Of a stretch of 34,094 bases of DNA, positions 1,939 through 30,275 are shown piece after piece (the stretch's first letter is position 1; each line of letters starts with the position of its first letter). Origin of the DNA: a virus. The notes beneath the pieces were generated by a model, which was given only the letters and a program-made list of their open reading frames with translations, made no database searches and was not told the DNA's origin. The stretch is taken from positions 1-34,094 of the IMG/VR virus record IMGVR_UViG_3300028571_000064. One strand, written 5' to 3'. The position numbers and the translations under genes were made by a program.

Positions 1939-2037
1939 CAATCACCCGCATAAATAATGCTCAATATCAGAGGGCATGGCATTTACACCTGGAGCGAGAA
2001 CAGGGCGGGACCTAAAAGACAACAAATACTTACAACT

Positions 2038-4020
2038 ATGTATAAAGAAATAGATGGTACTTTGACACTTACGGTGAATGACTGGTGTAACGCTGGATTA
2101 TCATTTGACCAGTTCAAAAATGATAGCAAAAGAGGCTATTTATCTATTAATAGACGTGGAACTGCTGGTAATACTCTTATTGATGTGAAATCGATTACAC
2201 GCCAAGATAGATTGAATGTATTGGAGCGGGTATATGGAAAAATAGTGGAGACTAAGAAGGCTAATTCAATTTTCACGGTCGAGATTGATGGGAAGGCTCG
2301 GAATTTTTATACTAGCTACCGGAAACCCGACGGAACGAACATTGAGCCTAACAGGATTGAGGAGTATGTGAATAGGGCTTCAATTTTCAACGCATTGGAA
2401 AAAGGATTGAAGCAACAAATGGCGGCACGTGCGAAAAGTGGCAGCCGTATGAAAATGGGTGAGTTTTGGTTGGATGCTGCTGATTGGTTCCTGGAACAAG
2501 TGGAGAAATATCCGTGTGCGGCGATCGGTAACGCCCGAAGTCTTGAAAGGGCTTTTAAAGAGTATTTAAAAGGCGGTTACGAAACATTGATTCATAAGAA
2601 CGTCGGCAACGATGCGGCACGTAAGGTATCGGTTTCGGCTGAAAAATTATTTCTGGCATTGTGGCGAACAAACGACAAGCCTTTCGTACTTCGGGTACAT
2701 GAGCTGTATTTGAATTTTGTATCGGGCGAAAAGGAACTATTTGACAAAAGCACCGGTGAGATATTTAGGCCAGCAGATTTCATGCACAAAGGTCGCGCAA
2801 TGGAGGTATCAGTGGCAACAGTATGGAGCTACTTGAAAGATGTGGTTAACAACACGGCGGTGTATTCTGATAGAAACGGAAATTTTGATTACCTGGATAA
2901 AATCAGACCTAAGAAACACCGTAAGCCGGGTAGGTTCTCACTAAGTAAAATATCGATGGATGACGTGGCCATGAGCCGCAAATCTAACAGAGGTTGGATT
3001 TATAAATATATGGCGGTGGATGTGGTGAGTGGTTATTGGTTTCGACCTGACTACGTACTTGGTAAACCTACAGTTAGAACTATTCACAACACCTTCCGCA
3101 ATATGTTTTGCGAACTTACTGAACTTGGTTTGCCAATGCCGGGAGAACTTGAAGTTGAATACGCTTTGATGAAACACATTGACTGGTTGGACAAAGCGTT
3201 CCCATTTGTACGGTTCTGTAACTCCCCAACTGAAAAACGTGCTGAACATGCCATTAAGGCTTTGAAGTATGGAGCGGCAAAGGATGCAGGTCACACACGG
3301 GGGCGTTGGTTTAGCAAAAGTGAAGCGTGGAAGGCCATACGGCACAAAGAGGATGGCGATTTTGTAGAAAAAATGTATCAACCACAAACAATTGTCCGCG
3401 ATGACTTGGACGATATTGAAAAGCATAACAACGAGCTTCACCCGCTTCAAAAGACCTATCCGGGACTAACCAGGAAACAAGTATTGATTACACAGGTGAA
3501 CCCAAATTTGCAGCCAATTGAGCATTGGCACCTTTACAAGTTTATTGGCAACGAAACGAATACATCGATTTATCACAATGACTTTTGCCCGGTATCTAAC
3601 GAGGAGTTTGAATTAAAGGATTTCAATAATTTGAAAAGGCTAAAATCTAACGATAGAACCGTAACAGCCTACTGGCTTCCGAACGATGATGGTACGATCA
3701 ACGAGGTGTATTTGTGGCAAGGTGACACTTATATAGGTGAAGCGATAAATAGAGCGCTGACAAGCTACAACGAATGTGCCATTGAGCGGACTGAACAGGA
3801 TGAAGCAAACATGTTATCGCAAAATAAACGCCTTGCCAAATTTGACAAGTTTGTGAAAGATAAAAAAGCGGAAATTCCGAAAATTGGAAGCTATGAGGCC
3901 ACTCCTGAGAAAGTATATGCGGAGGTGGAAATAATGGAAACAGTGCAACCGAAAGGTTATGACGGTGACGAAGATTTACCGGTAGAGGATTGGAGCAAGT
4001 TTGCAAGAGAAAGTTTATAA
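2038..4020 (+). CDS. MuA-like DDE transposase (rve superfamily)
   Basis: About 660 residues, close to Mu A (663). The start at MYKEIDGTLTL is preferred over a longer frame at 1957, which would run into the divergent promoter region. The N-terminal part should bind the prophage ends. The catalytic core starts near residue 300: an acidic pair in SMDDVAM (308-309), then MAVDVVSGYW, GELEVEYALM (E372/E374) and SPTEKRAEH (E399/E403). At the second catalytic position, where Mu A has Asp, glutamates are seen; Bacteroidota relatives that I recall also have EVEH there. The C-terminus contains a beta-barrel-like region (YWLPNDDGTINEVYLWQGD) and a basic, charged tail that would contact the MuB-like ATPase. 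The MuB-like gene follows 20 bp downstream. Family call is firm; active-site assignment is by inspection. Confidence 0.9.
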   Translation: MYKEIDGTLTLTVNDWCNAGLSFDQFKNDSKRGYLSINRRGTAGNTLIDVKSITRQDRLNVLERVYGKIVETKKANSIFTVEIDGKARNFYTSYRKPDGTNIEPNRIEEYVNRASIFNALEKGLKQQMAARAKSGSRMKMGEFWLDAADWFLEQVEKYPCAAIGNARSLERAFKEYLKGGYETLIHKNVGNDAARKVSVSAEKLFLALWRTNDKPFVLRVHELYLNFVSGEKELFDKSTGEIFRPADFMHKGRAMEVSVATVWSYLKDVVNNTAVYSDRNGNFDYLDKIRPKKHRKPGRFSLSKISMDDVAMSRKSNRGWIYKYMAVDVVSGYWFRPDYVLGKPTVRTIHNTFRNMFCELTELGLPMPGELEVEYALMKHIDWLDKAFPFVRFCNSPTEKRAEHAIKALKYGAAKDAGHTRGRWFSKSEAWKAIRHKEDGDFVEKMYQPQTIVRDDLDDIEKHNNELHPLQKTYPGLTRKQVLITQVNPNLQPIEHWHLYKFIGNETNTSIYHNDFCPVSNEEFELKDFNNLKRLKSNDRTVTAYWLPNDDGTINEVYLWQGDTYIGEAINRALTSYNECAIERTEQDEANMLSQNKRLAKFDKFVKDKKAEIPKIGSYEATPEKVYAEVEIMETVQPKGYDGDEDLPVEDWSKFARESL

Positions 4021-4040
4021 CAGTAAAAATACTACGAATT

Positions 4041-4925
4041 ATGATAACAGAGGAATTAAAAAAGCGGATAGTAGCAAGTTTGGCAGAAAGTCGCCAATTG
4101 TTCGACGGATCGGATGTGAAGTTTGCAACGAGTATTGGAATTAATGACTCCATTTACAATAGAATCAAAAAAGGTGATTTAACAAAAGTTCTGAAAGATG
4201 CGGTTTGGATATCGCTGGCACGTCGACAGGGGATTTCAGTAAATAATGCTTCTGAGTGGAAAATTGCAAAAACACCGGTGTTTGAATTTATCACCATGCA
4301 GTTGGAAATCTGTCAAAAAGAGGGTATTAGTTCACTGCTTTGCGATTTATCTGATATTGGAAAAACGGTGGCCGCCGTGCATTACGCAAAAACGCATAAG
4401 AACGCCATTTACTGTGATTGTAGTCAGGTGAAAAGTAAACAAAAAATGGTTCGCCATATTGCTAAAGAGTTCGGAGTTGGGCATACCGGTAAATATGCTG
4501 ATGTGTACGAGGACTTGGTATTTTACTTGAAAACATTACCCAATCCACTGGTTATTTTGGACGAGGCCGGAGACCTTCAGTACGATGCCTTCCTTGAAAT
4601 AAAAGCACTTTGGAACGCTACCGAACATACCTGCGGATATTACATGCTTGGAGCCGACGGACTACAGGAAAAAATGAGACGTGCCATTGACCATAAGAAA
4701 GTGGGATATACAGAGCTTTTTAGCCGATTTGGTAAGAAATACGGGAAAGTGGTTCCAATTGGAAAAGAAGACAGCGAAAAGCTAATGAGTGCTACTGCAG
4801 CTATGATTATTAAAGCAAATTGCACGGATGGTACTGACATTAATAAGCTACTGAGGCAAACAATGGGTGAAGATGGCCGACCAAGCCTCCGCCGAATATA
4901 CACGAAATTGACAACGGCTGAGTAG
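4041..4925 (+). CDS. MuB-like target-capture AAA+ ATPase
   Basis: A 294-residue protein directly after the transposase. Residues about 24-50 form a helix-turn-helix-like N-terminal domain (VKFATSIGINDSIYNRIKKG), as in Mu B. The P-loop is degenerate: CDLSDIGKT (101-109) keeps GKT but lacks the usual first glycine. Walker B is VILDEAGD (171-178). MuB binds target DNA cooperatively, delivers it to the transposase and gives target immunity; gene order and domain plan support the same role here. The start MITEEL is favoured over an upstream in-frame methionine within the transposase gene. Confidence 0.85.
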   Translation: MITEELKKRIVASLAESRQLFDGSDVKFATSIGINDSIYNRIKKGDLTKVLKDAVWISLARRQGISVNNASEWKIAKTPVFEFITMQLEICQKEGISSLLCDLSDIGKTVAAVHYAKTHKNAIYCDCSQVKSKQKMVRHIAKEFGVGHTGKYADVYEDLVFYLKTLPNPLVILDEAGDLQYDAFLEIKALWNATEHTCGYYMLGADGLQEKMRRAIDHKKVGYTELFSRFGKKYGKVVPIGKEDSEKLMSATAAMIIKANCTDGTDINKLLRQTMGEDGRPSLRRIYTKLTTAE

Positions 4926-7968: not shown

Positions 7969-8436
7969 ATGAAGAAACTAGAAATTTCAGAACAAAACGC
8001 CCGGAAGCTATACAAAGATATGCCGGACTTTCGCCCCTCACTGGAGGATACTTTTGGTAAAGCATTTTTTACTGAAAAAATTACTGATAGGATTAAGACA
8101 TACGAGGATGCATGTGCGGAACTTGGTATTAGTCCGTGGACTGAAAAGGACTTTAGCACATCGGGGTTGAAACCGGATGAGATCACTTATCGGAAAATAA
8201 AAACAATTACTGAAGCACTTAATGAAGGTTGGAAGTGTGACTGGAAAGATGCAAACCAATACAAGTATTATCCATGGTTCCGTATGTCTTCCGGGGGCTT
8301 CGTTTTCCACGGTACGTATTTCGATTACTCGTTTGCGTCTGCGGGTTACGCCTCGCGCCTTTGCTTTAAAAGTTCGGAACTGGCCAAGTATGCCGGTGAA
8401 CAATTCTTACAATTATATTCAGATTTTATCATTTAG
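7969..8436 (+). CDS. Variable-region target protein 1 (carries VR1)
   Basis: 155 residues. An N-terminal helical part (MKKLEISEQNARKLY, KITDRIKTYEDACAELGI) is followed by a linker and a conserved core: NEGWKCDWKDA, YPWFRM (residues 100-106), SSGGFVF, then a patchwork of variable residues and SRLCF, then a tail (LAKYAGEQFLQLYSDF). VR1 covers about residues 106-132. All amino acid differences from the template-encoded sequence arise at template adenines. Small proteins with YPWF, GFxF, SRLCF and Y-A-G-x-x-F motifs are familiar to me from many Bacteroidota genomes, but I know no assigned function. The protein is cytoplasmic by lack of a signal peptide or TM segment. Paralogous to the gene at 8473. 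Confidence 0.85.
   Translation: MKKLEISEQNARKLYKDMPDFRPSLEDTFGKAFFTEKITDRIKTYEDACAELGISPWTEKDFSTSGLKPDEITYRKIKTITEALNEGWKCDWKDANQYKYYPWFRMSSGGFVFHGTYFDYSFASAGYASRLCFKSSELAKYAGEQFLQLYSDFII
8285..8364 (+). repeat. Variable repeat VR1
   Basis: 80 bp aligned without gaps to the template repeat 8883-8962. There are 16 differences, all at template adenines (changes to G, C or T), and none at the 58 template positions that are not A. Codons in template AAC/AAT become CAC, TAT, TAC, TTT, TCT and TAC. The identity to VR2 extends 16 bp further 5' (from 8269) and 3 bp further 3' than either shares with the template. Confidence 0.93.
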
Positions 8437-8472
8437 CAATAATCGCCGTAAGGCACAAACAATTTTACACAC

Positions 8473-8853
8473 ATGGAAAAACAAGAAGTAACACCAATGG
8501 AAAGCATCAAAACAGTAGAGGATGCTTTGAACGTAACAGGTACGCCTGTAACACCTGAATTTAATGAAGTGCCTGAGGAACTTCGTGAGTATTTTAAAGC
8601 CGTATATGAGGCAGTTGCAATAACCAAGGCTTTAGTTGGCGACTGGAAAGCCGACTGGAATGATGGTCGCCAACGTAAATGGTATCCATGGTTCCGTATG
8701 TCTTCCGGGGGCTTCGTTTTCCGCGCTACGTATTTCGATCGCTCGCGTGCGTTTGCGGGTGACGCCTCGCGCCTTTGCTTTCCGACTGATGAGATGGCAG
8801 AGTATGCAGGTCGGACGTTCACTGACGTGTACAGTCGAATGATTCTGAAGTAA
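8473..8853 (+). CDS. Variable-region target protein 2 (carries VR2)
   Basis: 126 residues, a shorter paralogue of the protein at 7969. It shares the core (GDWKADWNDG, KWYPWFRM, SSGGFVF, SRLCF) and the helical C-terminus (MAEYAGRTFTDVYSRM); the N-terminus is different and shorter (MEKQEVTPMESIKTVEDALNV). VR2 covers about residues 76-102. In the variable positions this copy has R, A, Y, F, D, R, R, F and D where protein 1 has H, G, Y, F, D, Y, F, S and Y. The ATG has the TTTTACACAC leader shared with other phage genes. It follows 36 bp after protein 1, probably same transcript. Partner unknown. Confidence 0.85.
   Translation: MEKQEVTPMESIKTVEDALNVTGTPVTPEFNEVPEELREYFKAVYEAVAITKALVGDWKADWNDGRQRKWYPWFRMSSGGFVFRATYFDRSRAFAGDASRLCFPTDEMAEYAGRTFTDVYSRMILK
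8699..8778 (+). repeat. Variable repeat VR2
   Basis: 80 bp aligned without gaps to the template 8883-8962: 18 differences, all at template adenines, none elsewhere. Against VR1 there are only 8 differences over 99 bp (8683-8781 versus 8269-8367), again all at template-adenine positions, while flanking coding sequence of the two genes is clearly more divergent. Confidence 0.93.
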
Positions 8854-8882
8854 AAAATTGGGGCTGTTTGTCTTTGTGAGGT

Positions 8883-8962
8883 TGTCTTCCAGGGGCTTCG
8901 TTTTCAACGATACGAATTACGATAACTCGAATGCGAATGCAGGTAACACCTCGCACCTATGA
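8883..8962 (+). repeat. Template repeat TR, non-coding
   Basis: 80 bp containing 22 adenines, lying 30 bp after the stop of variable gene 2 and outside any gene. In the VR reading frame it would encode many Asn codons (AAC/AAT at seven positions, the usual variable-codon design of retroelement templates) and a TGA at its end, so it is not a usable coding copy. Mismatches to VR1 and VR2 fall only at adenines. The last 15 bp differ from both VRs by the same four substitutions, reminiscent of IMH versus IMH* in the Bordetella phage system. The 3' edge abuts a palindromic repeat. Confidence 0.92.
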
Positions 8963-8986
8963 CCCCTAGCCCCTAAAGGGGAATTA
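8961..8986. repeat. Palindromic interspersed repeat abutting TR
   Basis: CCCCTAGCCCCT-AAAGGGG-AATT is one copy of a GC-rich palindromic repeat family also seen at 17158, 17240 and, in a longer form, at 9407, 13522 and 14927. It starts at or within two bases of where similarity of TR to the VRs ends, so its arrival may define or have truncated the TR 3' side. A second hairpin (ACCGC / GCGGT) follows at about 8997-9014. Confidence 0.7.
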
Positions 8987-9034
8987 CTAAGCCCTACCGC
9001 TTTGAACGGCGGTGGGGATACAAATAAAAAAGAT

Positions 9035-9505
9035 ATGGAGCAAGTACAGGCAAAGAGTAAAGGAACATGGGGTCGAAGGGTTGACCGCTCACGGCAGGAA
9101 TTGAATGTGATATGTGGGGCTTTTTTTGACGGCTTGCAAGTGCCGAATGAGTGGAAGATTATACGGTGGGATAAAACTGAGGAACTACCGCCAATAGGGA
9201 TAACGTCGATAGGGATTATTTTTATGGATACGCGGACTCGAGGGATTGATATTATGCATTACCGGGTGATGTTCCACACTTTTAGTGAACGAGGCGGGGT
9301 GTGTGAGAAATCAATGAAGGATTTTGGGAAGTCTGCTTATAAGTCGGTAGACCATGGGATTTTTACAGTAGAGAAATTGAATGAGTTTTTACATGATAGG
9401 TATTTTGACCTCACCCCAACCCCTCTCCTTGAGGAGAGGGGACAAAACCAAGTTTATGACAAGGATGACGGCTTGCAGCATTTTAGAGATAGACTCTCAG
9501 ATTGA
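9035..9505 (+). CDS. Hypothetical protein next to TR, repeat-extended C-terminus
   Basis: 156 residues from the MEQVQAK methionine; a TTG-initiated extension to 9002 is not favoured. The body (residues 15-125) has a mixed alpha/beta look, with WGRRVDRSRQELNV and YRVMFHTFSERGGVCEKS; no family is recognised. It has none of the reverse transcriptase motifs and is not an evident Avd-type helical bundle. After FLHDRYFD the frame enters an interspersed repeat (9407-9442, encoding LTPTPLLEERG) and continues 19 further codons. The original C-terminus was thus probably replaced. Downstream of TR in the position where an RT gene is normally found. Confidence 0.65.
   Translation: MEQVQAKSKGTWGRRVDRSRQELNVICGAFFDGLQVPNEWKIIRWDKTEELPPIGITSIGIIFMDTRTRGIDIMHYRVMFHTFSERGGVCEKSMKDFGKSAYKSVDHGIFTVEKLNEFLHDRYFDLTPTPLLEERGQNQVYDKDDGLQHFRDRLSD
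9407..9442. repeat. Palindromic repeat inserted in a coding region
   Basis: GACCTCACCCCAACCCCTCT followed by CCTTGAGGAGAGGGGA. The arms CCCCTCTCCT and AGGAGAGGGG form a hairpin. Same family as 13522-13560 and 14927-14964. Here it is read in frame as LTPTPLLEERG near the end of the gene starting at 9035. Confidence 0.8.
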
Positions 9506-9593: not shown

Positions 9594-9963
9594 TTTTGAC
9601 GGAACGATAGTAACTGATAAATATCCGGAAATAGGTGAAATAAAAGATGGTGCTAAGGAAGCTATTAACCAACTGTATGCTGATGGTTATACGATAATAA
9701 TATGGAGCTGCCGCACTGGCATTAATAAAGCGAGAGCGATAGAGTGGCTAGTAAAACAGGGTATAAAGTTCCACTATTTTAATGAAAGCAGCTATGAGAA
9801 CCTAAAGCAGCATGAATTTAAAGATACTCGTAAAGTTTTTGCCAACCTGTACATCGATGACCGTATGCTGTTTAAACTTCCCACATGGGATGAAATATAC
9901 TGGATAGTGCGAGACCTGGTGCCAACGCGAGCGGATAAGGTTATTAATGAGGGGTATTTGTAA
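9577..9963 (+). CDS. HAD-superfamily hydrolase-like protein (BT0820-like)
   Basis: 128 residues. Motif I is IDFDGT (residues 5-10, nucleophile Asp and acid/base Asp), motif II is the Ser of IIIWSCRTG, and a late acidic motif is YIDDRML. Size and the GEIKDGAKEAINQLYADGYT opening resemble the short cap-less HAD phosphatases of Bacteroides exemplified by BT0820. Substrate unknown; in phages such genes are common in accessory regions, perhaps for nucleotide or sugar phosphate processing. Active-site residues appear intact. Confidence 0.8.
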   Translation: MIVAIDFDGTIVTDKYPEIGEIKDGAKEAINQLYADGYTIIIWSCRTGINKARAIEWLVKQGIKFHYFNESSYENLKQHEFKDTRKVFANLYIDDRMLFKLPTWDEIYWIVRDLVPTRADKVINEGYL

Positions 9964-30182: not shown

Positions 30183-30186
30183 AAAA

Positions 30187-30275
30187 AACGCCCTTCAAAG
30201 CAAGAAGTGCGTTAAAAAATGTCCTTCAAAGCAAGAAGTACATTAAAAAATGTCCTTCAAAGCAAGAAGTACATT
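30187..30275. repeat. Three tandem hairpin repeats with compensatory changes
   Basis: CCTTCAAAGCAAGAAGT occurs at 30191-30207, 30222-30238 and 30253-30269, period 31. Copy 1 is framed by AACGC...GCGTT and copies 2-3 by AATGT...ACATT, two compensated base pairs; inner CTTC pairs with GAAG. Each stem is preceded by A-runs, so on the minus strand T-runs follow it: possible leftward terminators. Confidence 0.75.

Follow-up and report, generated by a model that had tools for sequence, protein, structure and literature searches.

A reverse transcriptase-less DGR cassette in a Mu-like phage of Bacteroidota, with one variable repeat apparently rewritten after the enzyme was lost

Can a phage that carries the repeats of a diversity-generating retroelement (DGR) and no reverse transcriptase (RT) still diversify its target genes and, if so, with whose enzyme? 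This question is raised by IMG/VR record IMGVR_UViG_3300028571_000064, which was analysed whole (34,094 bp; hereafter the window). The carrier is a Mu-like phage of Bacteroidota, as judged from a MuA-type transposase (phrog_310; 1957..4020, + strand), a MuB-like transposition protein (phrog_296; 3990..4925, + strand) and phage head genes, with PHROG matches that include a terminase (phrog_38) and a major head protein (phrog_267). Its genes run from the repressor side, by way of transposase, head and tape-measure genes, up to a Prophage_tail-type protein. At 30183-30270, directly 5' of the gene for a 1121-aa tail protein, a unit resembling AAAAAATGTCCTTCAAAGCAAGAAGTACATT occurs three times in tandem.

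Two small genes in the early region, both on the + strand and both matching phrog_11581 (function unknown), encode proteins of 155 aa (target gene 1; 7969..8436) and 126 aa (target gene 2; 8473..8853). Each contains a variable repeat in its C-terminal part, VR1 at 8285..8363 and VR2 at 8699..8777 (+ strand), and a template repeat (TR) follows at 8883..8961 (+ strand), preceded by a non-coding leader (GGCTGTTTGTCTTTGTGAGGT; 8862..8882, + strand) that is conserved across RT-bearing relatives. Realignment confirms the first-pass annotation in that the three segments align without gaps and that the TR is non-coding, being located between the stop of the VR2 gene at 8853 and a gene that starts at 9036. 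That annotation treated the repeat as 80 bp long, and over this length its counts are reproduced: VR1 and VR2 differ from the template at 16 and 18 positions, respectively, each of them one of the 22 adenines in 8883-8962, whereas the 58 other positions are unchanged (P = 3e-12 for VR1 and 2e-14 for VR2 under random placement). The last of the 80 bases does not belong to the repeat, however. All related TRs examined, except that of the contig L064 described below, end in ...CACCTATGC or a close variant, and the adenine at 8962 already belongs to a deletion scar, as its first base, so that the true TR is 79 bp (8883-8961). Over these 79 bp, 15 and 17 of the 21 template adenines are changed in VR1 and VR2, and 0 of the 58 other positions. 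VR1 and VR2 also differ from each other at 8 sites, each of which, as originally described, is a template adenine. Moreover, reading the TR codon by codon in the VR frame shows that A-to-N changes yield no stop codon. A tblastn search with the target VR protein gave no match in annotated phage records. The predicted fold of the target contains confident helices and a variable stretch of low confidence, and it has no match in the PDB; we therefore make no claim for a C-type lectin fold.

The window encodes no enzyme that could have produced this pattern by the usual route, since a six-frame search of the 34,094-bp record gives no RVT_1 match. Motifs of the YxDD type do not point to an RT either; the only genes in which they appear are a HAD-like one near 9850 and a tape-measure-like one, which has two. 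In addition, the window lacks a match to the covariance model (R1) that describes the spacer RNA of its relatives, and it encodes no homologue of the 105-aa protein found beyond their RT. Both a DGR-type RT encoded with the TR and a structured spacer 3' of the TR are therefore missing, and because these are two defining features of DGRs, we use the term RT-less DGR cassette rather than complete DGR.

Alignment to RT-bearing relatives locates the loss. Homology runs through the TR, ends at 8961, and restarts with the gene at 9036..9505 (+ strand), which in these relatives is found 3' of the RT and 105-aa genes. The intervening 74 bp (8962..9035, + strand) form a scar in place of the spacer, the RT and the 105-aa gene, and contain the palindrome CCCCTAGCCCCTAAAGGGG and a second strong hairpin. 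In the related phage L015, the counterpart of the gene at 9036 is preceded by a MazG-like gene as well as by the RT and the 105-aa gene. A deletion that begins precisely at the 3' end of the TR has taken out the spacer along with the RT and 105-aa genes, and possibly one gene more. L064, an independent Bacteroidales MAG contig with approximately 80% identity across this region, shares the junction and has a nearly identical scar, which shows the scar to be an inherited state and rules out an assembly artefact. Exact-pattern scans located the junction sequence in no other viral contig, and a search of 393 genomes from the order of L064 with DNA spanning the 3' end of VR2, the TR and the junction returned only L064's own genome and one weak match. 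When the window TR and scar are folded as a single strand, their stability is not clearly above that of shuffled sequences. Palindromes of the form CCCCT...AGGGG are dispersed in the window (8963, 9420, 13536, 14941, 17041, 17162 and 17244); several lie inside predicted phage ORFs and one is exactly at the RT deletion junction. L064 has a similar palindrome between VR2 and the TR.

What the cassette has lost can be seen in a lineage that is widespread among phages of Bacteroidota and whose cassettes are ordered VR gene, VR gene, TR, structured RNA spacer, RT and 105-aa protein. All 17 relatives first found by means of the VR2 protein carry an RT directly 3' of the TR. Wider scans gave 112 distinct cassettes, in 104 of which the RT starts 88-121 nt (median 105) past the TR match; the remaining eight are L110, which is cut by a contig end, the window, L064, L055, L059, L060, L061 and L063. 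The best match of the relatives' RT is PDB 8ub7 (E 6e-56; file name 'Reverse transcriptase'), which we take to be the DGR RT of phage BPP-1, and retron-type and group II entries match at 6e-19 or weaker. Given also its match to phrog_1423 and the DGR-type IGxxxSQ motif, the sequence evidence identifies this enzyme as a DGR RT. The first-pass annotation's proposal of a DGR thus stands as regards the adenine-only pattern and the DGR-type RT that directly follows the TR in relatives with the same gene order. It is incomplete in that the RT, the cDNA-priming spacer RNA and the 105-aa gene are gone from the cassette of the window, and this cassette is not self-sufficient. Nor is the layout itself unusual, as had been suggested: the order VR-VR-TR is ordinary in this lineage, and the missing RT is the unusual part.

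The adenine specificity holds throughout the lineage. Among 75 distinct TR-VR pairs (29 TRs and 72 VRs), 1,061 of 1,557 cells are changed at adenines, as compared to 61 of 4,443 elsewhere, and most of the 61 fall in the outermost three positions of the repeat. The first-pass annotation had pointed to numerous non-adenine mismatches in related phages, or to similar VR variation in close relatives without a TR, as evidence against its reading; neither is found. These data bear directly on the idea that no RT was ever involved and that the window's pattern arose by chance, from a chimeric assembly or through the ordinary divergence of duplicated copies. The absence of an RT from the window is what this idea has in its favour. 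It must nevertheless accommodate mismatches confined to adenines at probabilities of about 1e-12 and 1e-14, the repetition of the pattern in 75 TR-VR pairs, a DGR RT adjoining 104 cassettes, and the same scar in the independent L064 MAG, and we regard it as extremely improbable. Moreover, the RT-bearing phages L001 and L003, which come from different metagenomes, show 6 differences in 9,219 bp, all of them at template-adenine sites of VR2, which indicates that the lineage is active in nature.

Some template adenines have a single fixed counterpart in the VRs. Repeat positions 9 (G in 34/34), 59 (G in 68/68), 66 (G in 65/69), 73 (G in 69/70) and 77 (T in 72/72), which correspond to 8891, 8941, 8948, 8955 and 8959 of the window, were recognised from the 75 TR-VR pairs of related loci. 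Changes at 59 and 77, both of them third codon positions, are synonymous, and the tract replaced in the L001/L003 event includes position 59. From their sequence distribution, these positions are probably the marks that distinguish IMH (in the VR) from IMH* (in the TR). The 105-aa protein encoded 3' of the RT (e.g., L015 7571-7888, L048 10553-10870 and L035 7632-7949) matches phrog_19665 and has no Pfam match. Its structural model is beta-rich, with weak OB-fold-like matches (SSB, RPA, HIN), none of them significant. Avd is a helix bundle, and the modelled 105-aa protein, which is not Avd-like, is a candidate new DGR accessory. L048 (8041-9370) has three VR-bearing target genes in place of the usual two, and its near relative L051 has two, so that target copy number changes quickly. 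Target homologues are also seen on contigs on which no TR or RT was detected nearby (L076, L081, L082, L084, L085 and L087-L097), and these are candidates for stable paralogues or remote targets.

The spacer that separates TR and RT forms a structured RNA, with compensatory changes at 6 of 9 consensus pairs in an alignment of 30 sequences. Covariance model R1 finds it in the relatives, including five that lack an RT beside the TR (L055, L059, L060, L061 and L063). The corresponding spacer of BPP-1 recruits the RT complex and primes cDNA synthesis (PMC12875486). By analogy, the window TR, which has no spacer, is probably no longer functional as a template.

If neither enzyme nor template works, the window VRs might be expected to have stopped changing in the adenine-directed manner, and the comparison with L064 suggests that this is not so for VR2. 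The flanks of VR2 are 96.8% identical between the two phages over 221 bp on one side and 93.3% over 75 bp on the other, with the next relative at 87-88%. Within VR2 there are 11 differing sites, all of which are template adenines, and none among the 58 other positions (P = 4e-8 under random placement). Sister flanks, a common scar and adenine-only differences together indicate that adenine-directed rewriting apparently took place after the RT was lost. On this evidence, which for the RT-less lineage consists of one sibling pair, diversification of VR2 apparently continued past RT loss, most simply by means of an RT acting in trans. VR1 is left out of this argument because its flanks stem from different lineages; those of the window and L064 differ by more than 20% and are best matched by different RT-bearing phages.

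This mosaic early region, the loss of both RT and spacer from the window, and the lack of an RVT_1 match in the L064 MAG, in which no helper is therefore seen, would also fit a recently dead fossil. In that case, nothing diversifies now, and the VRs are either the last states reached before the loss or were brought in by ordinary recombination with RT-bearing phages. Divergence between the window and L064 is approximately 5% in the VR2 gene flanks versus approximately 1% in the TR and scar, so that VR2 and the junction may have separate genealogies. The timing argument would fail if an RT-bearing phage were the source of VR2. Such an import would need to be confined to the VR alone, however, and a fossil does not readily explain why VR2 differs only at template adenines between phages that have sister flanks and the same RT-less scar. 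We therefore consider a fossil to be rather unlikely, while continued rewriting of VR2 in trans by an RT-bearing relative, in a DGR cassette without an enzyme of its own, is the probable explanation. Put differently, the cassette is either a freshly disabled copy or one on which the enzyme of a different phage now acts as mutator.

Related phages suggest how an RT might serve a template encoded elsewhere. The L015 phage (L194/L195) has a second TR-spacer unit behind the gene for a 506-aa tail protein and a single RVT_1 match; likewise, the L117 phage (L217/L218) has two template-spacer cassettes and one RT. The L061 contig (L188-L190) has its RT beside the tail cassette, and its early cassette, some 36 kb distant, is RT-less. 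A similar split is seen for L059 and L055, with their RTs on other contigs. In the L015, L117 and L061 phages, one cassette is for the small early proteins and the other for a protein from the tail region (about 475-506 aa), and the RT may be at either. Two further loci, L060 (Dysgonomonas sp. 216) and L063, have kept the TR and spacer, and no DGR-type RT was found in their genomes. The L060 spacer is still followed by the latter half of the 105-aa gene, so that the RT and the first half of that gene must have been deleted. These loci have adenine-only signatures and conserved spacers, and the phages in which a single RT goes with two template-spacer cassettes suggest that an RT can serve a template elsewhere.

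The same phages raise the possibility that the window phage has a split DGR of its own, its RT being encoded past either end of a record that may be a fragment, as is seen for L061 with its RT some 36 kb from the early cassette, and for L059 and L055. The window, however, spans the repressor-side genes to the Prophage_tail-type protein, its interval from tape measure to tail, which is the site of the RT in L061, contains no RT, TR or spacer, and its TR, unlike those of the split phages, has no spacer. A second locus within the same genome is thus improbable. As to rewriting in trans by another phage, several RT-bearing phages have a TR identical to that of the window over 79 nt, so that their cDNA would fit the window VRs.

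Taken together, these observations are consistent with the following sequence of events, the first part of which is modelled on BPP-1. In the relatives, the TR would be transcribed jointly with the structured spacer 3' of it, the DGR RT would copy the TR RNA into cDNA while misreading adenines, and the cDNA would overwrite the VRs of two small early-region proteins. In the lineage of the window, the deletion that starts at the TR 3' end took away this spacer together with the RT and 105-aa genes, and possibly another gene. The VRs being intact, an RT-bearing relative in the same cell, presumably another phage, would supply template RNA and RT in trans.

Comparison with known systems places the cassette among DGR derivatives. 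In Bordetella phage BPP-1 (mtd-avd-TR-brt) the RT and spacer that the window lacks are present. The targets in the window are, by contrast, two small non-tail genes of the early region, and no avd is recognised in its lineage, whose relatives carry the beta-rich 105-aa phrog_19665 protein past the RT. Hankyphage resembles the window in being a transposable, Mu-like phage of Bacteroidota (Bacteroides) with a DGR, although its DGR is intact, with RT and Avd, and targets a tail fibre (PMC6199706, PMC12135933) rather than small early proteins. Inactivated DGRs (PMC3521204) and RT-less DGR fragments (PMC4372165) have been published, and these resemble the window in having intact TR/VR pairs, or VRs only, without a functional RT. 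The window differs from them in that the same RT-less scar is present in two diverged phages with adenine-only VR2 divergence, and in that a working alternative is available in sister phages, where one RT accompanies two template RNAs. Remote DGR targets have also been published (PMC7517822), and in Thiohalocapsa PB-PSB1 incomplete chromosomal DGRs, lacking RT and/or TR, are reported as apparently diversified in trans by components encoded elsewhere (PMC10907252); there, however, everything lies within one bacterial genome, whereas the likely helper of the window is a separate RT-bearing phage. The window system is DGR-derived, and its layout, without an RT and possibly served in trans, is a variant for which partial precedents exist. 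In an incomplete search of the literature, we found no account of a phage that combines a single RT with two template-spacer cassettes, or of RT-less siblings with adenine-only divergence.

DGRs are usually regarded as self-contained, and searches for them mostly begin at the RT gene, so that an RT-less cassette would escape detection. The covarying spacer RNA provides a search model that is independent of the RT, and the lineage described here is a widespread one in which the targets are small early-region phage proteins and not tail fibres. The comparison also opens a direct test of whether the RT and template RNA of a DGR are able to act across replicons, for which natural material exists in the RT-less window/L064, L060 and L063, in the one-RT, two-template phages L015, L117 and L061, and in RT-bearing phages with a TR identical to that of the window. 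There is, in our estimation, an even chance that such cassettes represent non-autonomous DGRs, in which RT-less phage cassettes, in a manner related to the use of one RT for two template RNAs inside a single phage, would be diversified by the RT of a co-resident phage (and, for the window, by its template RNA as well), and hypermutation would be a resource that phages share.
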